Source: Novosphingopyxis baekryungensis DSM 16222
Lineage (GTDB): Bacteria; Pseudomonadota; Alphaproteobacteria; Sphingomonadales; Sphingomonadaceae
Length of the DNA: 64,000 nucleotides
Direction of reading: 5' to 3'
Assembly (NCBI RefSeq): GCF_000420305.1
Contig: NZ_ATUR01000005.1
Location: 191,001-255,000 of the forward strand
Shown here: positions 44,255 through 64,000 of the stretch, one piece after another
Numbering within the stretch: position 1 is the stretch's first letter
How the letters are laid out: every line of letters begins with the position of its first letter
Position numbers and translations under genes: made by a program
The notes under the pieces: model-generated
What the model was told of the DNA's origin: nothing
The model's database searches: none
The model's input: the letters and a program-made list of their open reading frames with translations, nothing else

Positions 44255-46957
44255 ATGGTCGAGATTTTCACGGTCGGCGGCGGCGAGTATATCGTCAACG
44301 TCCTCAACGCCGTAGCCGCCTGGACCGGTGCGGGCGGCTACAAGAGCTTGATCCAGGTCGCGCTGGTGATGGGCATGGTGCTCGCGGTCATCGTGGTCGC
44401 GTTCAACCAGGACTGGCGTGCCTGGCTCAACTGGTTCCTCGGTGCGACGCTCATCTACATGTGCCTGATGGTGCCGCGCATGGACGTCCATGTGACCGAC
44501 CGGGTTAATCCCAGCCTTGCACCGGCAACAGTGGCCAACGTTCCGCTCGGGCTCGCCCTGATGGCGAGCTTCACCAGCCAGGCGGGAGACTATCTGACCC
44601 GCTCTGCCGAGCTGGTATTCGGCCTGCCGGACGACCTCAACTACTCGAAGAACGGCATGATCTATGGCGCGCGGCTGCTTGAGTCGACGCGCAGCTTGCG
44701 CATTTCCGATCCGGAGTTTGCCGCGAACTTCGACGAGCATGTCCGGCAATGCGTGTTCTACGATCTGCTGCTCGGACGCTACTCGATGAAGGAGCTTTCG
44801 GAGAGCGACGATATCTGGGCGACGATCGCACCGGGCAGCGCGGCGCGCGCGCAGAAATTCCTGACCCGGCAGGCCGACGACAGCGTGACGGCCTCGATCA
44901 TCACCTGCCGCGAGGCCTACACCGCGCTGTCGGGGCAATGGGCGAGCCTTATCGACGAGATGACTCTTGTCGCGGGGCGCCAGCTCTATCCGCGCCAGAC
45001 CGAAGCACTTGCGAAGGCCAAGCTCATGGCCGACCTGCCGATTGCCTACCAGTATCTCACCGGCATCTCGCGCAGTGCGAGCGACATCTTCCGCCAAGTG
45101 CTGACGATCAATGCCATGAACCAGGCCATGCACGGCTTTGCCGGGGCGAGCGGCATGGGCAGCATCGACGTGTTCGCGCAGACCCGGGCCGATATTCAGA
45201 CCGAGCGGACCTATTCCTCGATCGCGCACAACGCGATGAAATGGGTCCCCATCCTCAATGTCGTGCTGACGGTGGTGTTCTACGCGCTGTTCCCTGTCCT
45301 GTTTCCGCTGTTCCTGATGCCGCGGACAGGACCCATTGCGCTGCGTGGCTATGTCACCGGCTTCTTCTATCTTGCGGCGTGGGGACCGCTCTTCGTCATC
45401 CTGCACATGATCCTGATGTTCAAGGGCGCGGGCGATGTCGCCGCCGCTGGCGGCAGCACGGGTCTCAGCCTCGCGACCTTTGCCGGCATGAGCGACGTCA
45501 ACAGCGATATCGGCATCTTGGCGGGTTATCTTGTCGCCTCGATCCCGTTCCTTGCCGGCGGGGTGGCGCGCGGTGCGCTGGCGATCTCGGGCCAGGCAAC
45601 GAGCTATCTTAACCCGAGCCAGAACGCGGCCGAGGAAGCCGCGCGCGAAGCGAGCACGGGCAATGTCTCGCTCGGCAATTCGAACATCGACAATTCGACA
45701 GTGTTTTCCCGGCAATTCTCCCAGGGCAATCTTGCCCCCAACATTGCCTATGGCGCCACGCAGACGCGCGGTTTCAGCGACAGCGGCACGCAGACGACCA
45801 GCTTCCCCGATGGAGAGTTCGCTGCTGTCCCGAATTCAAGCTATCCGTTCACGCCGACACTGGGGCAGGACTTCACCGGCCGCCTCGGAACGATGGCGAG
45901 CCAGAGCCGGACGCAGAGCGAGACCTATGCCAACCTCGCCCAGCAATCGACGAGCTCTGCGCTCACCCGGTTCAGCGAGATCCGCAACGCCTACAGCCAG
46001 GGTCAAAGCTCCGACACGGTCAGCGGCGTTGGCACCAACGACAGCATCGGCACGGCATTCAGCGAAGTCGACAATGCCTCAAGGACGCTCCAGCAGCAGT
46101 TCGGCCTGTCGCGGCGCGCGTCCGACGACATTACTGTATCCTGGTTCCTAAATGGAGAAGCTTCCGCAGGCGTAGGAGGCAATTTGGGGCCAGCAACTCT
46201 TGGAGCCAAGGCGACTGGCGGTCGCAATCAGTCGTGGACGGACAGCGATATCGGAATCGCTTCGGAAGACCGTGGCAGGATCATGGGAACGCTGCGTCAG
46301 CTTTCCGACAGTCGCAACTGGTCGAACACGCGTGAAGGCTTCCTGCGCGAGACGAGCTCGAGCTCGGTATCGCAAGTGTCGACCAGCTCGTCGGGTCTCA
46401 GCCGATCGCTGACCGAAGCCGAAAGCTACACGCGAGAGGCGCGTCGGGCCGAAGAGATGGCCAGCCGCCTCGAGAACCAGGCCAGCTGGTACGAGAGCAA
46501 CAGCGCCGCAGGCACGCTGAACCTGAGCCAGGCTTATCGCGAATGGGGCATGGCCGAGATCGAAGCCAATCGCGACTATTACGGGCCGGTGCGCTTCGAC
46601 GACATCGAGTTCCAGATGAGTGCGCGCGGCCAACAACTGCAATCGCGGTTTGTCGAAAGCTATGCTGACCGCTTGCAAGACGACGTCGAAGCCGACCTTT
46701 GGCTGCCAGACTTCGCTCCTGTCAGCCGCCCCGGGATCGGAGGTGCTGGACAGGTGCGCGCAAGAGGAGCTGTGGGCTCTGCGGGTGGTCGCTCAATGCC
46801 CGATGCTCCTGATCGGTCTGACATTACGGATGAGGTCGAGCGGGTTCGCCAGCAGGGTCGTGGAAGGATTGGCACCGTTCGAGGTTACCTGGACCGCCAG
46901 ACGCAGGGCGCCACGGGCGCAAGCGAGGAAGCAGCAGATGATGTGAAGGAGTGGTAA
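44255..46957 (+). CDS. traG: Mating-pair stabilisation protein TraG
   Basis: A 900-residue inner-membrane protein. Membrane segments lie near residues 30-75 and 325-440 (VLTVVFYALFPVLFPLFLM, GYVTGFFYLAAWGPLFVIL), with a family-typical start MVEIFTVGGGEYIVNVLNAV. The long C-terminal part (about 460-900) is periplasmic, Ser/Gln-rich and variable; in F it takes part in mating-pair stabilisation and entry exclusion. Last gene of the plus-strand operon seen here. Confidence 0.93.
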   Translation: MVEIFTVGGGEYIVNVLNAVAAWTGAGGYKSLIQVALVMGMVLAVIVVAFNQDWRAWLNWFLGATLIYMCLMVPRMDVHVTDRVNPSLAPATVANVPLGLALMASFTSQAGDYLTRSAELVFGLPDDLNYSKNGMIYGARLLESTRSLRISDPEFAANFDEHVRQCVFYDLLLGRYSMKELSESDDIWATIAPGSAARAQKFLTRQADDSVTASIITCREAYTALSGQWASLIDEMTLVAGRQLYPRQTEALAKAKLMADLPIAYQYLTGISRSASDIFRQVLTINAMNQAMHGFAGASGMGSIDVFAQTRADIQTERTYSSIAHNAMKWVPILNVVLTVVFYALFPVLFPLFLMPRTGPIALRGYVTGFFYLAAWGPLFVILHMILMFKGAGDVAAAGGSTGLSLATFAGMSDVNSDIGILAGYLVASIPFLAGGVARGALAISGQATSYLNPSQNAAEEAAREASTGNVSLGNSNIDNSTVFSRQFSQGNLAPNIAYGATQTRGFSDSGTQTTSFPDGEFAAVPNSSYPFTPTLGQDFTGRLGTMASQSRTQSETYANLAQQSTSSALTRFSEIRNAYSQGQSSDTVSGVGTNDSIGTAFSEVDNASRTLQQQFGLSRRASDDITVSWFLNGEASAGVGGNLGPATLGAKATGGRNQSWTDSDIGIASEDRGRIMGTLRQLSDSRNWSNTREGFLRETSSSSVSQVSTSSSGLSRSLTEAESYTREARRAEEMASRLENQASWYESNSAAGTLNLSQAYREWGMAEIEANRDYYGPVRFDDIEFQMSARGQQLQSRFVESYADRLQDDVEADLWLPDFAPVSRPGIGGAGQVRARGAVGSAGGRSMPDAPDRSDITDEVERVRQQGRGRIGTVRGYLDRQTQGATGASEEAADDVKEW

Positions 46958-47324: not shown

Positions 47325-47673
47325 TAATTCACCAGATCTGCGCCCTCTCTCGGTGCTGCTATCCGACCTCGGGAAGCAGATCGAAGCGTATCGCATATCA
47401 CGCAATCTCAAGCAGGCCGAGCTTGCGGAAATGGCTGGCATCTCGCGTTCAACGCTCGCCCGCCTGGAAGCTGGCAATGGCGGGACCATCGATAGCCTTG
47501 CCAGGATAATGCGCGCGCTTGAAATTGAAGACCGCCTCTTGGATGTCATGCCGGACGCCAAGCTGAGCCCGCTCGATCCCCGATCCGACACCGGCAAGGC
47601 GCGGCAAAGGGTGCGCAAGTCTTCTGAAGGCGAGGCTGGCGAGGAATGGAGCTGGGGTGACGAGGCCCCATGA
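47314..47673 (+). CDS. hipB: HipB-type XRE antitoxin
   Basis: A 119-residue antitoxin-repressor. The helix-turn-helix is central: LGKQIEAYRISRNLKQAELAEMAGISRSTLARLEAGNGGTIDSLARIMRAL (read in part, residues about 18-68). A charged tail (KARQRVRKSSEGEAGEEW) follows, as in HipB proteins that reach into HipA. It overlaps hipA by 4 bases. No clear ribosome site precedes the ATG, which sits inside a palindrome, so expression may be leaderless or low. Confidence 0.87.
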   Translation: MTHYNSPDLRPLSVLLSDLGKQIEAYRISRNLKQAELAEMAGISRSTLARLEAGNGGTIDSLARIMRALEIEDRLLDVMPDAKLSPLDPRSDTGKARQRVRKSSEGEAGEEWSWGDEAP

Positions 47674-48965
47674 CGCGTGCCGTAGTCAATCTCTGGGGTC
47701 GTCAGATCGGCGCCGTCCTGTGGGATGAGGATCGCGATGTCGGGGTTTTCGAATACACTCCGGAATTCAGTCGCAGCGGTATTGAAGTCGCCCCGCTCAC
47801 AATGCCATTACGAAGCGGCGTCTACGATTTTCCCGCGCTCAACTACGAGACCTTCAAAGGGCTGCCGGGCATGCTGGCCGACAGCCTGCCCGACAAGTTT
47901 GGCAACGCCCTCATCAATCGTTGGCTTGCCGAGCAGGGCCGCACAGCCGACAGCTTCGATCCGGTCGAGCGCCTTTGCTATACCGGTCGCCGAGGCATGG
48001 GAGCGCTCGAATTCGAGCCTGCCACCGGCGAGCGCCGTGAACAGGGCCGAACGGTCGATATCGCTCCGCTTGTCGAGCTCGCCAACAGGGTCATTGCCGC
48101 GCGTGAAGAACTGGCCGGTGTGCTCAAGGGTGAGGATGATCACCGCGCACTCCAGGAGATCCTGCGCGTCGGAACATCTGCTGGTGGTGCCCGGGCCAAG
48201 GCCGTCCTCGCCTGGAACGAGGAAACCGGAGAATTCCATTCAGGGCAGCTGACTGCAGGGCCCGGCTATACGCAATGGCTGGTCAAGTTCGACGGCGTGT
48301 CGGGCAATGCTGACAAGGAACTTGCCGACCCGATGGGCTTCGGTCGGCTTGAATACGCCTGCTATCTGCTGGCCCGGGAGGCTGGCATCGACATGGCTCG
48401 CTCTCGCCTGCACGAAGAAGGTGGACGAGCACATTTCATGACCCAGCGCTTCGACCGCACGCCTGACGGCAAGAAGCTCCACATGCAGTCGCTTTGCGCG
48501 ATGCGCCATTTCGATTTCAATCTGGCCCGCGCATACAGCTATGAGCAGGCGATCGAGACCATCCGCATGCTCGGTCTCGGGCGCGAAGCGATTAAGGAGC
48601 AGGTGCGCCGCGCGCTGCTCAATGTCTTCATTCGCAACCAGGACGACCACACCAAGAACATCGCCTTCCTGATGGATAGCTCGGGTCGCTGGAGCCTCTC
48701 GCCCGCATTCGATGTCGTCTACGCCTACAATCCCAAGGGGGATTGGACCAACGAGCACCAGATGTCGCTGGCTGGCAAAACTGACAATTTCCTACTTGAA
48801 GACTTGGTGACTTTCGGAAAGTTTGCGGACCTAAAGGCGCATGAAACCAACGCGATCATAGGAGATATCCGGTCTGCGATATCCAGGTGGCAAGAGCTCT
48901 CATCGCAGGCGGGCGTACCGTCCGACATGTCCATCAAGGCGCAAAACGGCTTCAGAAAACTGTGA
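47670..48965 (+). CDS. hipA: HipA-type serine/threonine kinase toxin
   Basis: A 431-residue HipA-family kinase. Family marks are LPGMLADSLPDKFGNALI near residue 68, the catalytic loop RNQDDHTKNIAFL near residues 320-332, and the metal-binding SPAFDVVYAYNP. HipA toxins phosphorylate aminoacyl-tRNA synthetases (GltX in E. coli) and slow growth. All key motifs are present, so it is probably active and neutralised by the coupled HipB. On a mobile element it can act as an addiction module or in phage defence. Confidence 0.92.
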   Translation: MTRAVVNLWGRQIGAVLWDEDRDVGVFEYTPEFSRSGIEVAPLTMPLRSGVYDFPALNYETFKGLPGMLADSLPDKFGNALINRWLAEQGRTADSFDPVERLCYTGRRGMGALEFEPATGERREQGRTVDIAPLVELANRVIAAREELAGVLKGEDDHRALQEILRVGTSAGGARAKAVLAWNEETGEFHSGQLTAGPGYTQWLVKFDGVSGNADKELADPMGFGRLEYACYLLAREAGIDMARSRLHEEGGRAHFMTQRFDRTPDGKKLHMQSLCAMRHFDFNLARAYSYEQAIETIRMLGLGREAIKEQVRRALLNVFIRNQDDHTKNIAFLMDSSGRWSLSPAFDVVYAYNPKGDWTNEHQMSLAGKTDNFLLEDLVTFGKFADLKAHETNAIIGDIRSAISRWQELSSQAGVPSDMSIKAQNGFRKL

Positions 48966-50161: not shown

Positions 50162-53100
50162 CTATTGAGAAAACTCGCGATATCGACAGTATGCATTTGC
50201 TAGTTGCATTTGTCTCGGCGTGCGGCACTCGGCTTCGAAGACTTTCGGAGAGCCAACCAGGATCGTCACGCACTTCGCGCGGGATGTCGCAACGTTCAGG
50301 CGATTGAGACTGTAAAGAAACTCCATCCCTCGTGGAGCGTCCGCATGCGAAGAGCTGGCGAGCGAGTAGATCGAAATCGGCGCTTCCTGCCCCTGAAACT
50401 TGTCGACGGTCCCAACCCGTGCATGCGGCAGGCGCTGCTGAATTTCGAAGACCTGGGCATTGTACGGCGCGATGATCAGGATGTCATCGCTTCCGACGGG
50501 ATGCTCTTCTCCATTGCGGTCAACCCAGGTCGCTCCTTGCTGCAGGATGTCGTCTACCACGGCTGCGATAACATCGGCTTCCTCGGTAGAGCAGTTCTGA
50601 TTGCCTTTGTGCTCGACGGGCAAGAAGCGGAGCCCCGTGCCCTCGGCGATGCCGCTGGCATTGACGCGTTGTCCAGCCGTCTCCTCCTTTGATTCAAGCT
50701 TGCCCTCATAGAAGAGTTCTGAAGTGAATCCGGAGATATCGGGATGCAGCCGCCAGGTAACGTCGAGGAACAGTCCTTCGTCAGATGCTATCGTCTGTTT
50801 CCCCGACAAGAGATGGTCGAGAGCCGAGCACCCAGTGCCGTCCGGATGGCTACCCTGCATGGGTTGGTCGAGTTGCTGAGGATCACCAAGCAAGACCAGA
50901 GTTTTGGCTGCCTGCGAGACCGCGAGCACATTTGCGAGGGACATCTGCGCTGCCTCGTCGACGAACAGAACGTCAAGACATTCAAACGCGTCCTCGGTCG
51001 ACCACAGCCAGGCCGTCCCGCCCGCAACCTGGCAATCGCCATGCAAGGCGGCGAAGACCTCACCATTGCTCTTCTTAGCAAAGCGAAGGCGATCGGTGGC
51101 CTCTTCCTTTGAACCCCCTTTCGGCTTTTGAATGCACACAAGCGGCGTTGAGGTTTCCTCGGCAACCTCAATAACCTTGTCGAGTAGGTTGCGGATCACA
51201 TCGTGGCCATTGGCCACGATCCCTACCTTTTTGCCTTGCTTCGCCAGCTCGCAGATCATGTGCCCGCCAGTATGCGTCTTCCCGGTTCCGGGCGGCCCCT
51301 GGATCGGCAGCACTCCCGACGCGACTAGCGGCGCAATCCGCACGCCGGCGGCCAGTGGCGTTTCGCCATCCAACCTGATTGCCGCATCGCCTCCAACTTG
51401 CGGAGCTACGCGCATGAGCATGTCTCGAGCGGGCCGGTAGGCATCGCCGTCGAACATGCCGTGCTCACAGACATAGCGCGCCAGTCGAACAAGCGATTCC
51501 TGCATGGGTTTCGATGAAACATGCTCGTGGACGAAGATCGCTTCGGGATGCTCGCTCGCCATGGCCGAGGTCTTCTTGATGTCGACAGTCCGGTGGCTGC
51601 GGGAAATGTCCTCTACCGAACCGACCGATTGGCCGCCCTGGACCTTAATTGCCTTGCCCGGGCGAATGTCGGCTTCCTGAGCTGGAAAGCTGTAACGGTC
51701 GATCGGACATTTTGCTGTTCCACCCACTGTCTCGATGTACTGCAGACCCGAGAGGCCCGCGCGCTCATCCAGTAGATCTTCGGCAGTAAGGTCGCATAGG
51801 CGGAAGTATTCCCACCAGCCTGCCTTCTCCTCGCGGCGATGCCATTCGAGCAGGTTCGCCAACAGCCAGCGACCATGCTCCTCGGCCGACCGATCGGCCG
51901 GATCGACCGGCACTCCATCGGTAAGTTGCTCGATCAACGGCGTGATCAGCTCGAGCCATTCGGAGAGGTTTTCGCTTGGTGCGCCATCGGCGATCTCCGG
52001 ACGCGCAATGTCGGCTCCCTGTTCGAGCAATTTCTGCCGCTGCGCTTCCAGCCAATCGCGCAAGTATCGCGTCGCAACGCAGTCATCGCGGTTGTAAGCC
52101 TCGACGGTAGCGCGATCCTCGGCCTCGATCCCTGCGGGATCATTCGCTTCGAGGCACAGCTGAAGCCGCGTCAGAGCTTGGTTCGCGTCGGGCAGCTTGG
52201 CATCGCGTTCGTAGCCGAAGAGCGGCTCGAGCTTCTTGATCGAATAGCTTTCGACGCCAGCGCGAATTGCGTGTCGCACGACGCTGAGAAGGTCGACAAG
52301 AACCTTGCCGCGAAGCAGCCGATCGAGTTCATCTTCGCGCGTGGCATAGCGGCCCATGAGCCGCTTGAGCGCTCCCGGCTCGTATCCCCCGTAGTGATAG
52401 ACATGCAGGTTGGGATAGGTTTCCAGCCGCGCGATAACGAAATCGACGAAGGTTTCGAATGCTGCCTTTTCTGCCTCGCGATCGAGCGCCCAGAGCCCCT
52501 GATAGCGCGTCTCTCCGCCGTCGATGTAATGAAAACCGTGGAGGTATTCGAGACCGTGCTCTCCGACGAAGGGGTCACCCTCGAAATCGAGGTAGATATC
52601 GCCTTCATCGGGCTCGGGCAGGCAAGCCAGTCCAAATCCGGGTACTGGTACAAGGAGCTCGAATTTGAGTTCGCCGGCAAGACGGCTTTCAAGCTGAACG
52701 CGGGCCTGCTCGCGAACGCGGGTGAAGCTCTTGAGCGAGCCGCGTTCTGGCTTCCAGGGCAAGAGCATGGCGAGTTCGGCAAGCTGCGCACCCGTCGTGA
52801 CCCCGTGCTCCTTGAGTTCGGCGATCTGAAGGCTCGAAATCCCTGCCACGAGACAAAGATGGTCGTCTTCGCGCCGTTGCTTGTCGCAGCGGGTGCTCCA
52901 AACGCAGATATCGCAATGCGCGGCCGGTTCCGGATATGACTCCTGCGGATCCCCGCCGAGATAGGTCGCCATTCCTCCCTTTACCTGGCGGTAGTATGCC
53001 CCGAAATCGGAAACGCGATAGCGCTCGGGCACAAAATCGGTCCAGGGTGGAACGACGTGCGCAAACTCCGGCATACGGCCCTGAACCTCGCCGATGAGCT

Positions 53101-53584
53101 CGGAATAGAGGCAAAGCTGGAGGACCGTCCCGCCTTTGGTTTCGCGGGCCAGCTTGGTGTCTACAGCTTCATAAGACCAACCACCGAGATCGCTCGGCGT
53201 ATCGACCTTCCGGAGGATGTCGGCGCGGCCGACCCATGCGCCAGAACGCAGAGCGCCCTGCACGATGACGTCAACGCCTTTGCGCATGGCCTCGTGTGTC
53301 GCCGCAACAGCTTCATCCGTAATTTCAACACCGTCGATACGCACGACGTGCAGCCCGAGGGTGGACAGGTGCTCGACATAGTCCTGCTCGTGTTTGGCCC
53401 CGCGTTCCCATAAAGCTTCGAGCAGCGGATCGTAGTACTTGGGTTTCGAGAGCTCACCCTTGGCAACAGCGTGCTCAAGACCACTCAGGTGCCGACAATT
53501 GAGGTAGCCGACCAAATCGGTCGCGCTGAAACGAAGCTGATCATTCTGGATTTTCACGGCGGGTGCTTCCTCCAATAGCGACAT
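50162..53584 (-). CDS. RecB-like nuclease / SF1 helicase fusion (TM0106 family)
   Basis: A 1140-residue fusion. N-terminal RecB/Cas4-like nuclease: YEAVDTKLARET and LQLCLYSELI, with a cysteine cluster HCDICVWSTRC (about residues 224-234) of the iron-sulphur type. Then a DEDD-like exonuclease part beginning DIYLDFEGDPF (about 330) and including AYNRDDCVATRYL. C-terminal Upf1-like helicase: QGPPGTGKTHTGG (about 760), LFVDEAAQMS (about 880), LGDPQQLDQP, VDKFQGQEAPISIY, NVATSRAK. It lies 102 bases after brxL on the same strand, so it may be a BREX accessory, but that is inference from position. Confidence 0.85.
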   Translation of the reverse strand: MSLLEEAPAVKIQNDQLRFSATDLVGYLNCRHLSGLEHAVAKGELSKPKYYDPLLEALWERGAKHEQDYVEHLSTLGLHVVRIDGVEITDEAVAATHEAMRKGVDVIVQGALRSGAWVGRADILRKVDTPSDLGGWSYEAVDTKLARETKGGTVLQLCLYSELIGEVQGRMPEFAHVVPPWTDFVPERYRVSDFGAYYRQVKGGMATYLGGDPQESYPEPAAHCDICVWSTRCDKQRREDDHLCLVAGISSLQIAELKEHGVTTGAQLAELAMLLPWKPERGSLKSFTRVREQARVQLESRLAGELKFELLVPVPGFGLACLPEPDEGDIYLDFEGDPFVGEHGLEYLHGFHYIDGGETRYQGLWALDREAEKAAFETFVDFVIARLETYPNLHVYHYGGYEPGALKRLMGRYATREDELDRLLRGKVLVDLLSVVRHAIRAGVESYSIKKLEPLFGYERDAKLPDANQALTRLQLCLEANDPAGIEAEDRATVEAYNRDDCVATRYLRDWLEAQRQKLLEQGADIARPEIADGAPSENLSEWLELITPLIEQLTDGVPVDPADRSAEEHGRWLLANLLEWHRREEKAGWWEYFRLCDLTAEDLLDERAGLSGLQYIETVGGTAKCPIDRYSFPAQEADIRPGKAIKVQGGQSVGSVEDISRSHRTVDIKKTSAMASEHPEAIFVHEHVSSKPMQESLVRLARYVCEHGMFDGDAYRPARDMLMRVAPQVGGDAAIRLDGETPLAAGVRIAPLVASGVLPIQGPPGTGKTHTGGHMICELAKQGKKVGIVANGHDVIRNLLDKVIEVAEETSTPLVCIQKPKGGSKEEATDRLRFAKKSNGEVFAALHGDCQVAGGTAWLWSTEDAFECLDVLFVDEAAQMSLANVLAVSQAAKTLVLLGDPQQLDQPMQGSHPDGTGCSALDHLLSGKQTIASDEGLFLDVTWRLHPDISGFTSELFYEGKLESKEETAGQRVNASGIAEGTGLRFLPVEHKGNQNCSTEEADVIAAVVDDILQQGATWVDRNGEEHPVGSDDILIIAPYNAQVFEIQQRLPHARVGTVDKFQGQEAPISIYSLASSSHADAPRGMEFLYSLNRLNVATSRAKCVTILVGSPKVFEAECRTPRQMQLANAYCRYREFSQ

Positions 53585-53686: not shown

Positions 53687-55768
53687 TCAGGTCTTCGACC
53701 TGAGATAAATGACCTCAAAAGCTTTGACAGCTCGATATTGTTGAAGCCTGTTGGCGAAGCTGAAGGCGTCATTCATCTCATACTGCTGAAAAATATCGAG
53801 ACCGCGATCCAGCGCAATTTTCCAGCCCGTATCGGTCACGATGTGCCTTGCATGGATCGTATTCGTATCGTCGAATTCCCAGGTGAAGTTGATGCCAGTC
53901 CCCTCGCACGAAGATGCGATCGCAGAGAGGTTTTCTTCCTGCTTCTCCGGCCGAATTCCATCAATGCAGGTAATCAGATGCACATCGACTTCATCTGCGG
54001 GCGAGTGGCTTTTGGCGATCGTCTCGATGAGCTCCATTAGATTGCGCACTTGATAAAACGCACGGATGTAGGGATCAGTGATCGTGATCTTCGAAGCTCC
54101 GGTAAGGTAAGAGCCAAAAAGCTTATCGAACGTCACTCCCCTCTGATTTTCTGCGAAAGAAAAGTGGCCTTCACTTGGACCAGCGTCTGCAGGAGCCGCT
54201 CGGTCTGTCGCTTCTGCCTGTTGATGGTCCACTTGCCTCTCAGCAACAGCACCTTCCCCTTCCGCTCCGTTCCCTGAGGAACCATCGGTATCTTGAGCTC
54301 GCCTGTGATAAAACGCGGGATACTCGGCTTCTTCCAAGGTCGTAACGACAACCTTTTCGCCGCTCTTCTTTGTGAACGAAAAATCGACATCGGGATACGT
54401 CGTGTCGATACGCATCAACTGATCCTTCACGCGTTTGCGCCCCTCAAGGGCTAGCTTCAAAATCTCTTCAATCTCGTCTGCTGTTGCGTCACCATGAGGG
54501 AAGAGCAATTTCATCAGACCGGAAAAGGTCTTGTGGACACCATCGCGGTCGCGTGTGGAGATATCGGGCGAGAGATCAAAGTGATCCCGGTAACGATCCG
54601 AGAAATCGTCGTTACGCAAATGCCGCAGAATCTCTGCGAGGTAGTCAACGACGAACCCGTACCCTCCAGAGAACATTTCTCCGCGGATGACCCCCACTTC
54701 CCAACCGGGAATGTAGGTGTGAAGGCGATCAATGAAGGCGGAATCATAGTACTTGTCAGGCAGCTCATCAAACAGGTCCGTGTTTTTGAGCATGTAGGGC
54801 ACGGTGTGTTTGGTGTTGCCTACGAACACCATCGAAGCTTCTGCCCCTAGCGGCTCGACACCGCGCGAGAAGCTCTTGTTGGCCATGTAGTTTTTGAGGA
54901 TGTCGACAAGTGCTTTATCGACCTTCTTCTGCTTTCCGGCAAACTCGTCGAGTGCCACGACGTCCCAGTATCCCACCAGACCGATTTTGCCTGAGCTGTT
55001 GTTGACGAACAGCTTTGGCACCGTCACTTCCCCCCCTGAAACTAAAATACCGTGCGGAGAGAACTCGGAGAAGATGTGCGACTTGCCAGTGCCCTTTGGG
55101 CCCAACTCGATCAGGTTGTAATTGCGCTCTACGAACGGGATGAGCCGCATCAACTGGATGAGTTTCGAGCGGCGGCCAAACATCTCCGGGTCAAAGCCGA
55201 CAGTCTGGAAGAGAAGGTCGATCCACTCATCGGTATCGAAGGTCTTGCGCGCTTCCAGGTATGCTTCGTAATCGAATTGTGAAAGCTGGATCGGCTTCAT
55301 GGAGCCCAGGATCCATGGTGTGACGTTCTTGTCCTCGGTGTAGTCGTATTCGATATCAGCAATGCACCACACGCCTCCAACGAGCAGCTTGGGGTGCGCT
55401 TTCACGGTCCCTGAGTCGATCAGGACTTTCGAGATTCCAAGGTTGGCAAAACTGGCTTCGTACGCATCAGTCTTGTCGTTAAGAGCCACACTGATGCGAT
55501 CAATGATCTTCCAGCGTCCTTTTTCTCGAATGTTGGATTTGATCAGGCCCGCTTCATTACGGTGCACGTAATGCTTGCGCAGGATCTCACGCACGGTTTC
55601 AATCCCAGACTGGATCGATTCCTCATCATTGGTGGCGCAGTACTGACCCAGCAGATACTCCAGCACGTATGTTGGAACGATGGCGTTGCCCTTAACCGCC
55701 TTTACAAGATCCTTGCGCACCACAAGCCCGGGGAAGCGTTCGTTGATCTTGTTATCTAGCGCGCTCAT
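53687..55768 (-). CDS. brxL: BrxL with a MIT_C-like C-terminal domain
   Basis: A 693-residue BREX AAA+ protein. The N-terminal BrxL part starts MSALDNKINERFPGLVVRKDL; Walker A is GPKGTGKS (223-230) and Walker B VVALDEFAG (270-278), then SRGVEPLGAEASMVFVGNT. A low-complexity linker (about 490-535) leads to a C-terminal domain (545-693) with ITITDPYIRAFYQVRNLMEL and HARHIVTDTGWKIALDRG followed by LDIFQ. That resembles the phospholipase-D-fold MIT_C domain; the Lon protease domain of canonical BrxL is not seen. BrxL is needed for BREX phage exclusion. It is 11 bases after pglZ. Confidence 0.88.
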   Translation of the reverse strand: MSALDNKINERFPGLVVRKDLVKAVKGNAIVPTYVLEYLLGQYCATNDEESIQSGIETVREILRKHYVHRNEAGLIKSNIREKGRWKIIDRISVALNDKTDAYEASFANLGISKVLIDSGTVKAHPKLLVGGVWCIADIEYDYTEDKNVTPWILGSMKPIQLSQFDYEAYLEARKTFDTDEWIDLLFQTVGFDPEMFGRRSKLIQLMRLIPFVERNYNLIELGPKGTGKSHIFSEFSPHGILVSGGEVTVPKLFVNNSSGKIGLVGYWDVVALDEFAGKQKKVDKALVDILKNYMANKSFSRGVEPLGAEASMVFVGNTKHTVPYMLKNTDLFDELPDKYYDSAFIDRLHTYIPGWEVGVIRGEMFSGGYGFVVDYLAEILRHLRNDDFSDRYRDHFDLSPDISTRDRDGVHKTFSGLMKLLFPHGDATADEIEEILKLALEGRKRVKDQLMRIDTTYPDVDFSFTKKSGEKVVVTTLEEAEYPAFYHRRAQDTDGSSGNGAEGEGAVAERQVDHQQAEATDRAAPADAGPSEGHFSFAENQRGVTFDKLFGSYLTGASKITITDPYIRAFYQVRNLMELIETIAKSHSPADEVDVHLITCIDGIRPEKQEENLSAIASSCEGTGINFTWEFDDTNTIHARHIVTDTGWKIALDRGLDIFQQYEMNDAFSFANRLQQYRAVKAFEVIYLRSKT

Positions 55769-55779
55769 ATCCCTGCCTC

Positions 55780-58281
55780 TCAGAAATCAAAGTCGTTGGT
55801 GAAGCTGCGGCGCAGAATGTAGCGCGCGCTTCGATATTCGCTGTAATGCGAGGTTTCTCCGTGCTGTTCTTCGAGGCGCAACACCACCTCCTTGCCATTG
55901 TAATCATCGGCCTTGCGTGACAGCAGGAAGCGGACTGGATGCTCGCGTTCCCGGGGATTTTCGGACCTAAAATCGAATAACAGTTCGTGGCTGTCTGAAA
56001 TCAGGTCACCCGATTGCGAGAAAATCCCTGCGCGCAGGCGTCGTGCCTGGGTCTTCTCGGTGACTGGAACGGTTTGGTAGAACCTGACCGAGATCTGGCT
56101 GGCCGTAATTACCTGATTTGTGCTGCCAATGATCTCGACATCGACAATAGAGGTGTCGCTCTGCCGCTTCTTGTTAACGCGGACGACGGGAACCACCGCC
56201 TCTTGCAACGTGGCGCCACCATGCACGAAGCGGCTACCAGAACCCTTGAGGCGCAGGCGGTTAATCGACTTCGGCACCAAGATTTCGACGTCACCTTGCA
56301 ACCCTGCCTCATCCGGCTTGTAGAGCCTGAGCCCCCGTTGGGGTTTAAGACCATGGCCGAGCACGAAGCGGCGATTGCGAAAGAGGATGGTCTCGCCCAC
56401 CACCTCCGAACCTGAAAAGTCACTCTCGTCGATGGGTCGGTGCTGGTAGATGAATCCATGATCTGCGGTGATCAGCAAATTGTTGGCATTGGCTGCGGTC
56501 AGCTTCTTAACAAGCTGAACCAGCTCATCGAGCGCCTTCTCCGCAGCGTCAAACACCCGATCTTCTGTGGCAGCTTTATCGCCAGTCGCATCGATTAGAT
56601 TGTGATAGACATAGATGACGTCGTGGTCGCGAAACAGCGACCGGTAGTCGTCTCGCTGCATCTTGAGGAGGTCATCTGCCAGCAAGGCCGTCGTTCGGTC
56701 TCCCTCGCGCCCGCGGCCGAGAATCTTCTTTCGGTTTTCGGTTCCCTGCGAGCTCTGACCATCAACGATCACAGCGCTGGTGTCATTGTCCGCGATCTGC
56801 AGGTCACGGTTCGGAAGCAGAGAGGCCATGCCAAGCTGGGTATAAGTCGGCAGCGATCCCAGCATTGTTTCGATTTCTGCGTCGTAACGGTCGAGCCCAC
56901 GCACTCGACCCAATAACTCATCCGCCACTTCATAGCGCATGGCGTCCGAAATGATGACGCAGATCTTCTGGTCCCTCTGCCGATAAGGGGCGACGTGGGT
57001 GGCATAGAATGTCCGTTGGGCCGGCACAGGCGACGCATGCCACTTAGGTGCTGCATCGACATGGACCTGCCAGCTATCATTGAGGCGCAGCAGGTAGGTG
57101 TTCACATAATGGTTCTCCACCTGCTCATAAAGCTCGGCCATCAGGCTAGCCTGTCCCGACTTCTGCATGTGGTAGATGAACTTGCGATAGAGCTGATCGA
57201 TGCGGAACCAGCTCCCGGCATAGCGGTTGACGCCTTCCGCCATGCTTGTCATGCCGAGGTTTACCTGCGCCATCGCTGCTTGAAATTCAGCTGCGAAGCC
57301 AATGGCCTCATAGAGATCGCGGAAGCGGTCGTACCAGTAGCTCTGGCGGCGCTGGCGGATCCAGCTTGCTACGTCTCCAGCCGCGAGTGTTCGCGCCGAG
57401 ACACCACGCACGAGTGCGACGATAATCGCCCGATCAATATCTTCAAAATGGTCGAGATCGATAAGGCCGCGAAAATTGCGCGTTTCAAGATCGGCACGCA
57501 CGCCCAGCACTTTAGCGTAATTGGAGGATAGTGCCTCGAAGGCTTGAGCTGCGTGGCGGTTGTTTTTCCAGCGGCGGAAAAAGACCAGCGCCTCTGGCGA
57601 AAGCCCCCCGGCTTCTCCCAGTCCCATGGCATAGCAGGCCTTAAACAATGACACCGCGAAATCCTCAATGCTGGGATGTACGGCCGTATAGCCATAATGT
57701 CGGCCCATCTGATCCCACAGGAATTCCCCAAGACCGGCCCGCTCCACTAAGCGCATGGCTTCGTCAGTTCCCTCTGCAAGATCGGCCAGCAGCCGCTCGA
57801 CAACGGAGTCAAACCCACCTTCGCCACCGGCGCACACGCTCAGCATCTTCAGGCGCAAGGCGTTTGCCGTGTCGTCATTGTGGGCAAGCCGCTTGAGTAA
57901 TTCGAGCCTGCGGGCGGAGCGGAAGAACTCCGCATGCGCGCGCACCACATCTTCAAGACCAAGCCCAAGGCCCAGTTCGGACAACCAGAGGGCTGCTTGG
58001 TCCGCCTTAAACGTGCCGTGGGCCAGCTGCACGTCAAGCAGCCAGTTGCCGATCAGCGCAGGCTCAGGCCCTTCGCGGTAGATCAGGAAGCGCCCCTGTG
58101 GCATCTCCCGCAGGATCCGGTGCTTTACCGCGAACTCGTTGTTGGCGAGCGCAATCTTCTCGACGCCGGGCAGCTCAAGAGCCTCGAACGTCTCGCGCAG
58201 CTCGCGTGCCGTATCTGTCCAGAACACGATTCGGTGACGGTCAAAAGCCGCTCCCAGGCCTTTGGCGATGCGATCATTCAT
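55780..58281 (-). CDS. pglZ: BREX type 1 alkaline-phosphatase-fold protein PglZ (type A)
   Basis: An 833-residue PglZ-A protein. The alkaline-phosphatase-superfamily metal sites are visible in CVIISDAMRYEVADELLGR (about residues 440-458) and LLITADHGFIYQHRP (about 604). The start RIAKGLGAAFDRHRIVFWTD and LPGVEKIALANNEFAVKHRI (in part) are typical. PglZ is the signature BREX protein, required for both phage blocking and PglX-dependent methylation. Two bases separate it from pglX, 11 from brxL. Confidence 0.95.
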   Translation of the reverse strand: MNDRIAKGLGAAFDRHRIVFWTDTARELRETFEALELPGVEKIALANNEFAVKHRILREMPQGRFLIYREGPEPALIGNWLLDVQLAHGTFKADQAALWLSELGLGLGLEDVVRAHAEFFRSARRLELLKRLAHNDDTANALRLKMLSVCAGGEGGFDSVVERLLADLAEGTDEAMRLVERAGLGEFLWDQMGRHYGYTAVHPSIEDFAVSLFKACYAMGLGEAGGLSPEALVFFRRWKNNRHAAQAFEALSSNYAKVLGVRADLETRNFRGLIDLDHFEDIDRAIIVALVRGVSARTLAAGDVASWIRQRRQSYWYDRFRDLYEAIGFAAEFQAAMAQVNLGMTSMAEGVNRYAGSWFRIDQLYRKFIYHMQKSGQASLMAELYEQVENHYVNTYLLRLNDSWQVHVDAAPKWHASPVPAQRTFYATHVAPYRQRDQKICVIISDAMRYEVADELLGRVRGLDRYDAEIETMLGSLPTYTQLGMASLLPNRDLQIADNDTSAVIVDGQSSQGTENRKKILGRGREGDRTTALLADDLLKMQRDDYRSLFRDHDVIYVYHNLIDATGDKAATEDRVFDAAEKALDELVQLVKKLTAANANNLLITADHGFIYQHRPIDESDFSGSEVVGETILFRNRRFVLGHGLKPQRGLRLYKPDEAGLQGDVEILVPKSINRLRLKGSGSRFVHGGATLQEAVVPVVRVNKKRQSDTSIVDVEIIGSTNQVITASQISVRFYQTVPVTEKTQARRLRAGIFSQSGDLISDSHELLFDFRSENPREREHPVRFLLSRKADDYNGKEVVLRLEEQHGETSHYSEYRSARYILRRSFTNDFDF

Positions 58282-58283
58282 GC

Positions 58284-61200
58284 TCAGTTATCCGCATCCG
58301 ACAGGCCCTTGATGGGTTTGAGCGCCAGACCAAACTTCGGGTAGTTGGACTTCACCCCATCATCGAGATCGATTTCGATCTTCTGCGTGGCCAGCGGGTA
58401 GAGCACGTCGCGTTCGTATCCATCGAGCTCCTCGATCACCTTGGTCGCCTCGCCTACCTCTTTGAGCGCCTTGGTGCGCTGGGCAGGCGTAGCTTCGGGG
58501 TTCATGCTCTGCGCCTCCTGAGCCTTGCGGTGGGCCTCCAGTTTGTTGCGGTATTCGCGAAGGTAATCGTTCAGTACCACGCTGACCGTGTCCGACCGAT
58601 AGCGGTGCATGTAGATCAAGGCTTGGAAGCTGCCTTTGGGGCTGGCGAACATCCAGTAGATCGGACGCTTCTTGTAGCGACGCACATGGTAGTCATAGAA
58701 ATCACGAGTGAACCACTTGCGGATATCCTTGCCCAGCGCGCCTTCAATTAAGGCCAGATTTTCCTGGAACTTCGCCTCGCCGAAGGTCACCCGCAGGAAC
58801 TTGCGGAAACGTTCGGCGATGTCGTCGGAGAACCAGTCACCCTGCAGCACCGGGATGACATTGTCGGAATCCACGTCAAAGCTGGGCTCCGGCACACGTG
58901 CAAGGTATTCGGCGAAACCTTCGCCCTGATTGGCCAGGATCAGTCCGGGCGCATCCAAGCTGAAGCGGCCAAACATGCAACCTACGGCATAGTGCAGGAA
59001 TTCTTCCATTGTGCGCGCAAGTAGATCTGCCTCACGTTGCTCGTCCGCCTTGTCGCCCTTGATCGAATAGGCGGGGTTGCAGGTGAGGGTAATTTCCTCC
59101 AGCGGCACCTCGGAAGTCAGTTCATCTTGCAGGTCATAGGCGTCGATGAAGATGCGATTATTCTCTTCCTCCAGCCGCTGCATTTCTTGGGTCATGCCGT
59201 GCCAATGGGCGCGCAGGCTCGCGTAGCTGCCTGCCAGCGTCTCAGACCGATGCTCGGAGGCGAGAAGCGGCAGCGAGGCGAAATCCCAAGAAGTCTCGTA
59301 AGCGTCCCAGTCGGAGCGGGAGATTGCAATAATCGCATCGGCAATTTCGATGATCTTATCACGATCTTTGAATGCACCAGCCATCAGTGGAAAACCAAGG
59401 ACTGTCTCCATTTCAAAATTAAGCGTAGGACTTATGGATGACAATATGTGCTGGGCAACCGTTGATCCTAATAACGCCGCGTATTGTTTCGCGTCACTTT
59501 CAAGTTTGGGGAATATACTAGATCCGGCGACGTCCCAAACATAGCCTTGAGGCAAATATCTCGCCGCAAAATTTCTAGTGCTAATCTTGTTCCAGGATAC
59601 GCATTCACGAAAATACAAGTCGGAATTTTCCGATCTTCTCCTCGTCAAGCCACGCCCTTCATCTCGCCAATTGAGCAGGAATTCGCCGTTGCCATACCAA
59701 CGCCTATAATCCCCCCCTTTTGTGTAAGGAACCCAGTATTGCGTTTTGCGATACTCTCTGTCGTATATTTGTGGAGGTACTAGGGAAGTATTTCGTGAGA
59801 CTTCAGGCCAGAAGCGCAGGAATGAGTTGTTATCACCCGTAATCATTCCCTGGATCCCACGCACACCTTTAGACAGCGGAGAAGCTTTTGAGAACACCTT
59901 TACCAAGTCCGCACTCAGCCAGTAAGTGATCAAACTACCTGGGATCTCGGCAAATATCGCTGAAGGGACTTTAAAATAGAGTCCCGCTCTACGATTAGAG
60001 ATCGCCGACGACAGCATGCTTGCTTTCTCGGCTTCATTGGCACCATCAACGAGGCGGACATAATCGCCGTATATGTCGGGCCAGTATGCGTTGGATATTA
60101 CAAATGCCGTTGTAGATACTACTGCTCCACCAATGGTATCAAAAGCGCGCTCGCCCAAATGGGCCATTGAGATAATAGTCGTACTTTTGAGAATCTTATC
60201 GCGGAGCTTTTCGAATGAGGAGAGAAACATCCAAGACTGCATGTTAATCATTGCCATCAGCCCATGCCCGAGCGTCAGTGCCAGCGAGCGTTCCATGAAC
60301 ATGGCGAACAGGTCAGATTTACTGCCTGGGTATCTGGCCTTTGCATAGTCAGATAACTTCCCGTTCATCCCCTTAGAACCCATGTAGGGCGGGTTAGCCA
60401 CGACCACATGGTATTTAGGCGAGAGCGCCTCCGCCATCTCCAGAACCTTCAGCACCCGCTCCTGCACTTCGCGCAGCAGCAGGTCGCCGCCGAAATCCTT
60501 CAGCCTCACGACCCGGGCCACCTCGGCAGGGTCGCGCAGCTTCGGCACAATTAGCGAGCCGAAGTTCTTTGCCTGCTCGAACTGCCCCATCGTTGCGCGA
60601 AAATCGGCGGTGAACAAATCGCTGCCCACCACGGTAGCGACGTCCTGCATCTCAGATGGCGTGAAGCGTACATCTTGCAGCACGCAGATATTCGGCTGCA
60701 CCGCTTGACGGAAGAACCTGCGGCGCCCGAGCATGGTTGCCGCCTTCATCGCTAACGCGAATGCAGCCAGCGCACCCGCTCGTTCATCGATCTCGATCCC
60801 GTATAGGTTGTGGGTCAGGATCAACCCAGGAATCTCGGTCGCCTCATACCCCTCTTCCTCATAGATCGCGTAAAGCAGATCGAAGGAATAGGTCAGCATG
60901 TGCCCTGACCCGCAGGCCGGATCACAAAGGCGGATATCCTGTGGCCGGGAAATGCGCAGGAAATCGGTTTCTGGCTCTTCAGGCGCGATGTAATAGTCCA
61001 TCTTCGCCGCGAGCTTCGAGGTCGGGCGGTTCAGCAGCCAGAGCCGTCCCAGCGAATTCTCCACCAGATAGCGCACGATCCAGTGCGGGGTGAAAAGCTG
61101 GGTCGCCGCCGGAATGTTCTCGGCCGTGATCTTCTTGTTCTTCTTGAGGCCCGCGAAGACCTCATCCTTTCTCTCCGATATATAGAACTGGTAGAGCCAG

Positions 61201-61796
61201 CCGATAACCTCGACATCCTCGCAAACGTCGGGGGTCATGGCTTCGCGCACATAGGCCAGGATCGAGGCGTTCGACAAAAGATCGTCGGGTAGAAGTAGCT
61301 CTGTGTAGTCGTCGATCCGCTCGAACAGGAACGGTATAGCCCTGTGTAGGTCGTTGCAAATGGTGACGATAAGAAGCCGATAGGCCTCGGTCTGGGCATC
61401 GGAACTCGGGGTGCGGCCATCCAGTAAGCCGCGAACCTGTTCACGGATCCTCTCAGGCACATGGTCCTCGTCCATGTGCCCAGCTTTGGCCTCGGCCAAG
61501 ATCTCTGGCTGAAACTGACCGGAGACAGGCGAAACAACGCGAACCTTATTCAACTCATTCATATCCATGAAACGAAGAGCTGAGAAGCGATTAAACCAAG
61601 TGTAGGCAACACGCTCGACTACCTGATCCTGCCCGTCCTTGGCGATAGCCGCCTCAAGTTTCCTCATCGCATCGGGATGCTCGCGGCGGGCTGCCGAGTT
61701 CTCGGCAATCACAGATTCAAGCTTGGCGCTGACCTGCGCAATCAGTGCGCGGCGGGCAAACTGCGCGAATTTTTTGAGCTTCGAGATATCCATCAA
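58284..61796 (-). CDS. pglX: BREX type 1 adenine-specific DNA methyltransferase PglX
   Basis: A 1170-residue N6-adenine methyltransferase that marks self DNA. Motif I is CDPACGSGHM (291-300) and the catalytic NPPY is at 468-471 in VVVANPPYMGSKG. Residues about 490-805 (roughly 60330-59380) form the probable target-recognition part and are visibly AT-richer than the flanks. The C-terminal helical part ends in DDGVKSNYPKFGLALKPI, a common PglX ending. Reading frame intact. It overlaps the nuclease-like gene upstream by 4 bases. Confidence 0.95.
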   Translation of the reverse strand: MMDISKLKKFAQFARRALIAQVSAKLESVIAENSAARREHPDAMRKLEAAIAKDGQDQVVERVAYTWFNRFSALRFMDMNELNKVRVVSPVSGQFQPEILAEAKAGHMDEDHVPERIREQVRGLLDGRTPSSDAQTEAYRLLIVTICNDLHRAIPFLFERIDDYTELLLPDDLLSNASILAYVREAMTPDVCEDVEVIGWLYQFYISERKDEVFAGLKKNKKITAENIPAATQLFTPHWIVRYLVENSLGRLWLLNRPTSKLAAKMDYYIAPEEPETDFLRISRPQDIRLCDPACGSGHMLTYSFDLLYAIYEEEGYEATEIPGLILTHNLYGIEIDERAGALAAFALAMKAATMLGRRRFFRQAVQPNICVLQDVRFTPSEMQDVATVVGSDLFTADFRATMGQFEQAKNFGSLIVPKLRDPAEVARVVRLKDFGGDLLLREVQERVLKVLEMAEALSPKYHVVVANPPYMGSKGMNGKLSDYAKARYPGSKSDLFAMFMERSLALTLGHGLMAMINMQSWMFLSSFEKLRDKILKSTTIISMAHLGERAFDTIGGAVVSTTAFVISNAYWPDIYGDYVRLVDGANEAEKASMLSSAISNRRAGLYFKVPSAIFAEIPGSLITYWLSADLVKVFSKASPLSKGVRGIQGMITGDNNSFLRFWPEVSRNTSLVPPQIYDREYRKTQYWVPYTKGGDYRRWYGNGEFLLNWRDEGRGLTRRRSENSDLYFRECVSWNKISTRNFAARYLPQGYVWDVAGSSIFPKLESDAKQYAALLGSTVAQHILSSISPTLNFEMETVLGFPLMAGAFKDRDKIIEIADAIIAISRSDWDAYETSWDFASLPLLASEHRSETLAGSYASLRAHWHGMTQEMQRLEEENNRIFIDAYDLQDELTSEVPLEEITLTCNPAYSIKGDKADEQREADLLARTMEEFLHYAVGCMFGRFSLDAPGLILANQGEGFAEYLARVPEPSFDVDSDNVIPVLQGDWFSDDIAERFRKFLRVTFGEAKFQENLALIEGALGKDIRKWFTRDFYDYHVRRYKKRPIYWMFASPKGSFQALIYMHRYRSDTVSVVLNDYLREYRNKLEAHRKAQEAQSMNPEATPAQRTKALKEVGEATKVIEELDGYERDVLYPLATQKIEIDLDDGVKSNYPKFGLALKPIKGLSDADN

Positions 61797-62296
61797 GCAG
61801 CTGCCCCTTCATTTATGCGCCGGAGGGAATGATCCCCGAATTGCTTTTTCCACTGTGCAACGTTCAGAACGATGCAGCTGGTCGCGCAGTCGCGCTCCCA
61901 ATCAGCATGAGACAGTGGAATTGATCTTTTGAGTTCGTCCTGCTTCGCTAAAAGCAGCGCGCTATCCAGTTTTTTCATAGAAATGAGAGCGATGTAGACA
62001 ATCGCTCGCTCACCTTTTCCCTGGATTGACCGAAAGAAAAGCGTGTCTCGGAATTTGCCTGAGAGGCTTTGCACCAGCTCTCCGGATTTCAGCTTCTTCT
62101 CAAACGCTTCAGGGTCCTTAGCCGCAGGGTCGTCCGGGTCCTTTATTTCAACGAAGATATCACGGTCCTCGTACTCCGCGATAAAATCGACCCGCTTAGC
62201 GGTGCTTGCTCCATGATACGCAGCGTCGTCAAAATGAAAGACAGACTTCGCCTCCGAGAACGTCAACTCCAGATCGAACTCTCGAACGGTCGTCAT
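61793..62296 (-). CDS. PD-(D/E)XK-nuclease-like protein embedded in BREX
   Basis: A 167-residue protein without a family name known to me. Residues 36-53 read VDFIAEYEDRDIFVEIKD: Asp37, then Glu50 and Lys52 in EIK after 12 residues, the D-X(n)-ExK core of PD-(D/E)XK nucleases, with hydrophobic strands on both sides. The rest (FRSIQGKGERAIVYIALISMKKLDSALL) could complete the fold. It overlaps the ATPase gene and pglX by 4 bases each, so it is translated as part of the BREX operon. Likely the nuclease or partner of the ATPase; could instead be an inactive relative. Confidence 0.7.
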   Translation of the reverse strand: MTTVREFDLELTFSEAKSVFHFDDAAYHGASTAKRVDFIAEYEDRDIFVEIKDPDDPAAKDPEAFEKKLKSGELVQSLSGKFRDTLFFRSIQGKGERAIVYIALISMKKLDSALLLAKQDELKRSIPLSHADWERDCATSCIVLNVAQWKKQFGDHSLRRINEGAAA

Positions 62297-63465
62297 AGTT
62301 TGACGCCTTCCAGCGAGCGATCAACCTCCGCATCGTACAAGTCACTAAATGTCTGAGATATTCCAGTCTCGGAAATGCGGGAATAATCATCAATTGATTG
62401 AACGGATATAGATCCATCGTCCGCCGCATTAGCTATGACGTGATAGAGGATGTGATCCTCCTTGCCCTTGTCCATGAGCAAATCGAACCATTTCAAAAGG
62501 ACATAATCGTGCGTAGCCAGAATGATCTGCTGGCCGTTGCGCGATAGCTCGAGAAGCACCTGGACAACCTCGTTCATGAGCGCCGGATTCAGGTTTGCCT
62601 CGGGCTCATCCCATAAAAGGACGCCAGTGTTTCCTGGGTTGATTGATCCATTGCAGAGCAAGCGGTGCAGGACGCCAATTTTCCGATAGCCTTCGGCCGT
62701 CATGCCGCTCGAAAATGATTCCCTACTTCTAGCGACGAACCGGAGGACCGTAGAGTCCTGATACATTTGTGCGGTCTTGGCGCGCGACCGATCCGGATCT
62801 GGCCGTTCCTCGTATTCTCCGGGTTCAAACTGAAACCCGCCGCCGTTTGTCCACCGGTAGCGTCCGCCGACAAGTGAGACCAATTCACGAACGATGTTTG
62901 AGAGCCTCGGATCCTCTTCCAGATTGGCGGCCTCATCTTCAAAACTGGGCGTGGTGAGGAGTGCAGCCAAGTCGAGGTAGGTGTCATCGAAAATCATCTC
63001 GACAGTCGCCCGATCATGATTTTCATCCTGCATGGCGCGAACGAGCGACAGGACTTCCTTCGTCGGGATGAACACGGGGCGGGACTGCGCTTCAGAGCGA
63101 GCGTCCGTCTCTAATTGGACCTCCGTGGACCTTCTTTTGAATGAAATGGCGGCCTTGGTGTCATCGCTTCCCTTAATGCACATCCTGGCTCCACCAGATG
63201 CTCCCCGGGCCCACAATTCGCCAATCTTGCTCTCGCCCGGAGAGAAAACTCGCAATAGCTTGTTCGTCAGCTGCGTGTCGGTGCCCCTTTCCGAACCCTC
63301 TACCTCCGATGCCGGTTGGCTTGCGATCGCCAACGTGTAGATCGCCTTGAGCAGATGTGTTTTGCCGGTTCCGTTCGAACCAATGATCACGTTGAGGCGC
63401 GGCGAGAGAGGGATATCCAGTTTCCCGAACGCCGTGAAATTCTCAATTTCAATACCCGCGATCAT
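62293..63465 (-). CDS. AAA (ABC-like) ATPase embedded in BREX
   Basis: A 390-residue ABC/SMC-like ATPase of the AAA_15/AAA_21 type. MIAGIEIENFTAFGKLDIPL and Walker A IIGSNGTGKTHLLKA (about 27-41) open the protein; LLWDEPEANLNPALMNEV near residue 283 holds Walker B, and ILATHDYVLL near 315 the switch His. No coiled-coil hinge or Toprim domain is present. Similar ATPases are the sensor halves of two-gene defence systems such as Septu and PARIS. Its ATG shares one base with the brxC stop (TGATG). Confidence 0.85.
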   Translation of the reverse strand: MIAGIEIENFTAFGKLDIPLSPRLNVIIGSNGTGKTHLLKAIYTLAIASQPASEVEGSERGTDTQLTNKLLRVFSPGESKIGELWARGASGGARMCIKGSDDTKAAISFKRRSTEVQLETDARSEAQSRPVFIPTKEVLSLVRAMQDENHDRATVEMIFDDTYLDLAALLTTPSFEDEAANLEEDPRLSNIVRELVSLVGGRYRWTNGGGFQFEPGEYEERPDPDRSRAKTAQMYQDSTVLRFVARSRESFSSGMTAEGYRKIGVLHRLLCNGSINPGNTGVLLWDEPEANLNPALMNEVVQVLLELSRNGQQIILATHDYVLLKWFDLLMDKGKEDHILYHVIANAADDGSISVQSIDDYSRISETGISQTFSDLYDAEVDRSLEGVKL

Positions 63466-64000
63466 CAGACCGTGATCCTCTTGCCGCTCCGAATTTCAGC
63501 GAGCAGCGTTTCGCGATAGGATTGAAGGTATGTTTCAACGTCCGCCTCACTGGCGAGATACGGGCTCGTGAAACTGACCTTGAGATTGGCGGTCGAGACG
63601 TATTCTACCGGCGAGGGAGCGGGGGCCGGCTGCGGCGTAGTCCCTCCAGCTGGTTCCTCAATCCCCTTGCCTTCCCCAGATGGGGTAGGATTAGTGGCAG
63701 AAGGTTCGGGTGGCGCTGGCGGTGTGGCTAACCGGGCGATCTTCCCAAGCAATGCCGGATAGGTTTCCGAACGGAAATTGGCGGTACGCTCGCGGATCAT
63801 AGCCACAAGTTTGGCATTGCGAACGCTGGCTTCAGCGGCCTCGCACTCGCTGAGAATCTCAGCCTTGGCTGCGGCATCCGATAGCGCGAATTCTGGTACC
63901 GCCTCAATCTTGGCCTTGAGCTCGGCTAGACCCTCAAGAGCGCTGTCCCGCTCCTGCACGATAAAAGCATCAACATGGGCACGCAGATTATCGAGATCTG
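63465..64000 (-). CDS. brxC: BREX P-loop ATPase BrxC, C-terminal 178 residues
   Basis: Only the end of the gene is in the window; the frame is open to base 64000. It contains a helical segment (LRAHVDAFIVQERDSALEGL, EAEASVRNAKLVAMIRERT), a Pro/Ala-rich linker and the terminal strand-helix unit (ANLKVSFTSPYLASEADVETY ending GKRITV, in part), typical of BrxC. The position upstream of pglX, pglZ and brxL supports the call. BrxC is a large ATPase of about 1200 residues. brxA and brxB are expected further right. Confidence 0.82.
   Translation of the reverse strand, partial: DLDNLRAHVDAFIVQERDSALEGLAELKAKIEAVPEFALSDAAAKAEILSECEAAEASVRNAKLVAMIRERTANFRSETYPALLGKIARLATPPAPPEPSATNPTPSGEGKGIEEPAGGTTPQPAPAPSPVEYVSTANLKVSFTSPYLASEADVETYLQSYRETLLAEIRSGKRITV

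Follow-up and report, generated by a model that had tools for sequence, protein, structure and literature searches.

A HEC-02 ATPase–nuclease pair as a probable accessory module in the type 1 BREX operon of Novosphingopyxis baekryungensis

What is the role of two additional genes that separate brxC from pglX in a type 1 BREX operon? The question is raised by a stretch of 64,000 nucleotides from Novosphingopyxis baekryungensis DSM 16222 (contig NZ_ATUR01000005.1, positions 191,001 to 255,000), referred to here as the window. ORF analysis of the window places brxC, a gene for an ATPase, a gene for a 167-residue protein, pglX, pglZ and brxL in this order on the minus strand, in agreement with the sizes and order of the two extra genes given in the first-pass annotation. 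The type 1 gene order brxA-brxB-brxC-pglX-pglZ(type A)-brxL is confirmed, with the pair inserted between brxC and pglX, and the complete operon, brxR-A-B-C-pair-pglX-pglZ-brxL, is intact. The 3' end of brxC occupies 63465..63959 (minus strand; PADLOC BrxC 1.6e-27, NCBIfam BREX_BrxC), from where the gene continues past the window end; it is intact, with a full ORF of 1189 aa at L002:14465-18034. Upstream of brxC, just beyond the window edge, lie brxB, brxA and a WYL regulator, all assigned by position and size in L003 and by conserved gene order relative to an annotated locus (DUF1819, DUF1788), with phmmer matches. On the other side of the pair, and likewise on the minus strand, follow pglX (58284..61793), encoding the type 1 BREX adenine-specific methyltransferase of 1169 aa (NCBIfam BREX_1_MTaseX, 1420 bits), pglZ (55780..58281; BREX-1 PglZ type A, TIGR02687 1.1e-271) and brxL (53687..55768; Pfam BrxL_ATPase 2e-127, NCBIfam type 1 BREX match 1.3e-190).

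The pair is translationally coupled to its neighbours on every side, which upholds the earlier view that it is co-translated with the BREX core. The brxC and ATPase genes meet in a TGATG with a 1-base overlap, and the ATPase and nuclease genes in an ATGA with a 4-base overlap. Both junctions are as originally described. The second 4-base overlap of that description, between the nuclease gene and pglX, does not stand; it would require a TTG start for pglX. This junction is most likely a second TGATG with an ATG start of pglX at 61793, a choice preferred because the annotated Sphingobium homologue (L055) starts there. With these three overlaps and only short gaps further along, the genes form a single operon. 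The presence of the pair in this operon goes beyond chance, since a further 18 type 1 BREX loci have it directly ahead of pglX and its catalytic residues do not vary in 43 relatives.

The upstream gene of the pair (62293..63465, minus strand) encodes a 390-residue protein that is, judged by its motifs, an OLD/ABC-type ATPase. The full ABC motif set is present, comprising Walker A GSNGTGKT (residues 29-36), a signature-like AEGYRK (257-262), Walker B LLWDEP (D286/E287) and the H-switch H319, and the motif residues are invariant in 41 homologues. The PADLOC model HEC-02A (PDLC04213, E=1.2e-101) covers residues 1-386, and Pfam reports AAA_21 (2.7e-19) and AAA_15 (1.3e-17) but no nuclease domain within the protein, consistent with its initial description as an ABC-like ATPase that has no nuclease domain of its own. 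The ATPase body is least conserved at residues 61-120 and 181-250. Fast-diverging regions are typical of sensors, and these two stretches would be the best candidates for a sensing function.

The 167-residue protein (61793..62296, minus strand) is less readily classified. It has no match in Pfam or NCBIfam, and a profile search of PDB sequences returned only a spurious ferritin match. A Pfam scan of 43 family members yielded sub-threshold matches only, including DpnII, SduA_C, DUF2726, UPF0102 and PDDEXK_9 mixed with unrelated families, so that they hint only weakly at a nuclease. No TOPRIM or HNH match is found in Pfam or PADLOC, the PADLOC assignment being HEC-02B (PDLC04220, E=1.4e-59, residues 1-163 of 167). 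The residues highlighted in the first-pass annotation are present as D37 and E50-I-K52, and D23, V36, D37, E41, E50, K52, D53 and K81 are invariant in 43/43 relatives, down to 20% identity. In an AlphaFold2 model built on the alignment of these 43 relatives (pLDDT 90.7), D37 runs into strand 38-41, E50-I-K52 closes strand 45-52, and a long helix after this strand bears K81 and R83. The model shows the PD-(D/E)XK layout, in which neighbouring strands of an alpha-beta core carry a conserved D...(D/E)xK. The Foldseek search proposed at the outset returns a nuclease-like fold, with the small subunit of the restriction endonuclease R.BspD6I (2p14) as the top PDB match at modest values (E 1.9e-3, probability 0.99, TM about 0.40); lower matches include N.BspD6I, EcoO109I, Bse634I and Hjc, together with some unrelated folds. 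Because motif invariance, model topology and the Foldseek match are taken together, the individual Foldseek numbers being modest, the protein is credibly a PD-(D/E)XK nuclease, with a predicted active site of D37, E50 and K52, as was first suggested. Inactive restriction endonuclease folds act as sensors in other BREX helicases, according to passages of PMC12839542, and the small protein might by the same token be a PD-(D/E)XK-like protein that has lost catalytic activity and serves as a nucleotide sensor, with the ATPase or another gene as effector. The invariance of D37, E50 and K52 across such distant relatives argues against a dead enzyme, and this alternative is considered extremely improbable.

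As a pair, the two proteins belong, on the strength of their profile matches, to the catalogued defence candidate HEC-02, because the HEC-02A and HEC-02B models of PADLOC-DB cover both of them end to end. The earlier statement that no named system has this content is therefore superseded, and with it goes the headline novelty of the pair. The HEC-02 labels seem swapped in two further PADLOC models, as a 'HEC-02B' model (PDLC04146) matches the ATPase and a 'HEC-02A' model (PDLC04145) the small protein. HEC systems were reportedly presented in a 2024 preprint by Payne et al. In the passages of two papers that cite the HEC preprint, HEC stands for 'Hma-embedded candidate', and several HECs are reported to be validated (PMC12111858, PMC12988326). 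No phage paper naming HEC-02 was found in a literature search. The two-gene content of HEC-02 matches the present pair, although the name refers to embedding in Hma and the copy described here sits within type 1 BREX, with brxC and pglX as its neighbours.

A second line of description comes from Rakesh & Krishnan (NAR 2026, PMC12839542), whose relevant passages report OLD-ABC ATPases with HNH, PD-(D/E)XK or PIN nucleases in 594 taxa, in BREX and related systems, and term such dyads a back-up effector layer within BREX. The OLD-ABC and PD-(D/E)XK dyads described there match the present pair in content and in their proposed back-up role in BREX core loci, and the back-up-effector hypothesis for such pairs is thus already published. 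Those passages do not describe the co-exchange at the ATPase C-terminus, the slot beside pglX or the independence from PglX target recognition that are presented below. New, as far as found, are the co-exchange of tail and nuclease, the modularity of sensor, effector and target recognition, and the locus counts.

The likeness to Septu and PARIS with a different nuclease type, pointed out in the first-pass annotation, is supported by the Pfam and PADLOC comparisons and the invariant motifs. PARIS (AriA and AriB) also combines an ABC ATPase sensor with a separate nuclease and is likewise found embedded in BREX, but AriB is a TOPRIM nuclease and the partner here is of the PD-(D/E)XK type; AriA models match the ATPase at superfamily level only (71.7 bits versus 338.7 for HEC-02A). 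Septu (PtuA and PtuB) shares the arrangement of an ABC ATPase with a separate small nuclease, but PtuB is an HNH protein and PtuA models reach about 45 bits versus 339 for HEC-02A. GajA models also match at superfamily strength only (at most about 72 bits versus 339 in PADLOC). In PARIS, the ABC ATPase sequesters the nuclease and frees it once an anti-restriction protein is sensed (PMC11455837). A Salmonella BREX with an embedded PARIS does not need that PARIS for its own defence or methylation (PMC11341690).

Whether the pair is a core part of BREX or an accessory can be judged from its distribution. A degenerate scan of 84,980 species genomes, performed with a 3-row alignment subset, found 38 loci with relatives. 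All 14 of the closest relatives (46-63% identity) belong to type 1 BREX loci and directly precede pglX, and together with two plasmids, G189, G547 and the present locus they make up 19 type 1 loci with the pair in this slot; in L017, it sits between two pglX copies. L076 and L077 are other BREX-1 loci in which the pair separates pglX from pglZ, while BREX-3 relatives are found beside pglXI in L031, L033 and L034. Further distant relatives, whose surroundings were screened in part for other defence genes, have no type 1 BREX gene nearby, and no relatives were found in phage records. The count of BREX loci suggested in the first-pass annotation thus places the pair mainly in the brxC–pglX slot, with relatives also away from BREX-1 genes, and the idea of a BREX-only pair was rejected in view of the standalone and BREX-3 relatives. 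BREX-1 PglZ is carried by 12/398 genomes of a phylum sample, and the pair is present in 5/11 evaluable BREX-1 loci of that sample. In L074, L079 and L080, BREX-1 is intact, brxC abuts pglX and the pair is lacking. The pair is therefore an accessory module and not a core BREX subunit, being absent from intact BREX-1 loci and having relatives in BREX-3 or outside BREX.

The brxC–pglX slot can hold more than this pair. A gene of 589 aa with Schlafen-AlbA_2/HATPase domains lies between brxC and the pair at L021:6943-8712, and L022 has an ORF of matching size in the same place, so two accessory modules can stack here. Between pglZ and brxL of L022 (16481-18138), an ankyrin-repeat protein and a 172-aa partner match the PADLOC candidate PDC-M72A/B.

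The wider surroundings of the operon point to mobility. F-type conjugation genes (TrbI/TraB-like, TraC, TraU, TraN, TraH, TraG) lie ahead of the BREX locus, with relaxase-like and TraD-like ORFs beyond it, the conjugation-related regions being window 31297-46957 and L003:7257-12832. BREX therefore lies inside a conjugative plasmid or an integrative element (contig of 300,942 bases). A HipA-like kinase toxin gene is found beside the conjugation genes (window 47670-48965). Just downstream of brxL (window 50162-53584), a gene encodes a 1140-aa protein in which a RecB-like nuclease of the TM0106 type is joined to a DNA2-like helicase (TIGR03491 9e-73); L074 has a relative after BREX-1 on the opposite strand, and L055 has one ahead of it. 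BrxL itself bears a C-terminal phospholipase-D-like (MIT_C, 1.2e-40) domain, a variant that passages of PMC12839542 describe as an HKD nuclease, and for this reason the operon may carry three nuclease-type effectors. The conjugation genes on the host element, the two-gene layout and the small putative toxin would suit a module that resembles a toxin-antitoxin or plasmid-maintenance system, keeps the conjugative element or the BREX locus stable and is not directed against phages. Such a role is very unlikely, as the clade strongly prefers BREX operons, the mid-regions of the ATPase diverge in a sensor-typical manner, and the pair is assigned to defence in PADLOC and in the cited passages of PMC12839542.

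Three separate events suggest how the pair is organised internally. In each, the ATPase kept its body but exchanged its last 50-60 or so residues along with the nuclease. One of them involves L011 and L075, found in two alphaproteobacteria that belong to the same family; BrxB, BrxC, PglZ and BrxL of these loci share 92-95% identity. The ATPases are 87% identical over residues 1-330 and 42% over 331-390, and the nucleases 30-31%. At the DNA level, the two loci share about 80-90% identity up to ATPase codon ~340 and about 40-50% beyond it, and the higher level returns where pglX starts, which identifies the ATPase tail and the nuclease as one exchanged segment. In the trees, the L011 ATPase is placed firmly among the brxC–pglX ATPases, unlike its nuclease, whose grouping with the other brxC–pglX nucleases is rejected (AU p=0.0004). 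The second exchange separates L084 from L020/L028 (ATPase body, tail and nuclease 70/30/34% identical) and the third L089/L087 from L038 (66/41/27%). The reverse is seen in L019, L024 and L056 compared with L020, where nuclease (84-88%) and tail (80-86%) are kept and the body falls to 52-53%. Across 59 pairs, uncorrected for phylogeny, nuclease identity tracks the ATPase tail with r=0.83 and the body with 0.63, with partial correlations of 0.74 and 0.33; the sharp exchanges are the stronger evidence. Because tail and nuclease travel together, the C-terminal segment (aa 331-390; 62293..62475, minus strand) appears to be the dock of the nuclease.

The DNA specificity of BREX appears to change independently of the nuclease. 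Within sets of near-identical loci (L021-L023, L026 and L027; the window and L055; L029 and L030), nuclease identity remains at 85-98%, whereas PglX region 470-830, the part of PglX that recognises the target, reaches only 33-51%. It follows that the nuclease is not tailored to the BREX motif, and a role as specificity-matched restriction partner of PglX was ruled out. This bears on the alternative that the pair is an integrated BREX component. PglZ is a nickase without double-strand cutting, and the pair could add this activity and, in concert with PglX, attack unmethylated phage DNA in the manner of a restriction subunit. The translational coupling fits such a role, as does the position of the pair, which adjoins a methyltransferase gene in 24/24 BREX loci found with it (19 in the type 1 brxC–pglX slot, two in the type 1 pglX–pglZ slot and three of type 3); indeed, the near-exclusive pglX-side placement of the clade counts against the back-up reading to this extent. 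Only about three independent insertions underlie this placement, however, so that adjacency was judged weak as proof of a link to PglX. Together with the intact BREX-1 loci lacking the pair, the relatives outside BREX-1 and a nuclease that keeps 93-98% identity as the PglX target-recognition region turns over, this makes an integrated component unlikely. Of the two roles initially offered, back-up effector or BREX subunit, the former fits better.

The pair is most likely a PARIS/Septu-like back-up. More fully, it is a HEC-02 member that probably serves as an accessory back-up module in type 1 BREX, with the ATPase as sensor and gatekeeper and the nuclease as effector. The computational support covers gene order, coupling, family, invariant motifs, a nuclease-like fold, accessory distribution and tail–nuclease co-exchange. 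By analogy, PARIS logic with a PD-(D/E)XK effector is proposed. The variable ATPase body would sense a phage cue, possibly a BREX-blocking phage protein, while the C-terminal ~60 residues would keep the nuclease inactive or positioned. Upon triggering, an ATP-dependent rearrangement would free or activate the nuclease, which would then cleave nucleic acid, more likely DNA than RNA. The phage genome would thereby be destroyed or the infection aborted, with an outcome that may or may not be suicidal for the cell. It is also somewhat favoured that the locus represents a three-part mix-and-match alarm, composed of a sensor body, a cassette of tail and nuclease, and a separately exchanged PglX target-recognition region. 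Recombination would in this way let BREX operons exchange the sensor, the effector and the DNA specificity each on its own.

These assignments offer a handle on a widespread class of proteins, in which ATPase residues 331-390 should dock the nuclease and residues 61-120 and 181-250 should sense. The related loci allow a comparison of BREX with and without the pair. If confirmed, the arrangement would help to tell a BREX subunit from a back-up for BREX failure, and would mean that defence operons change their alarm and their weapon independently.
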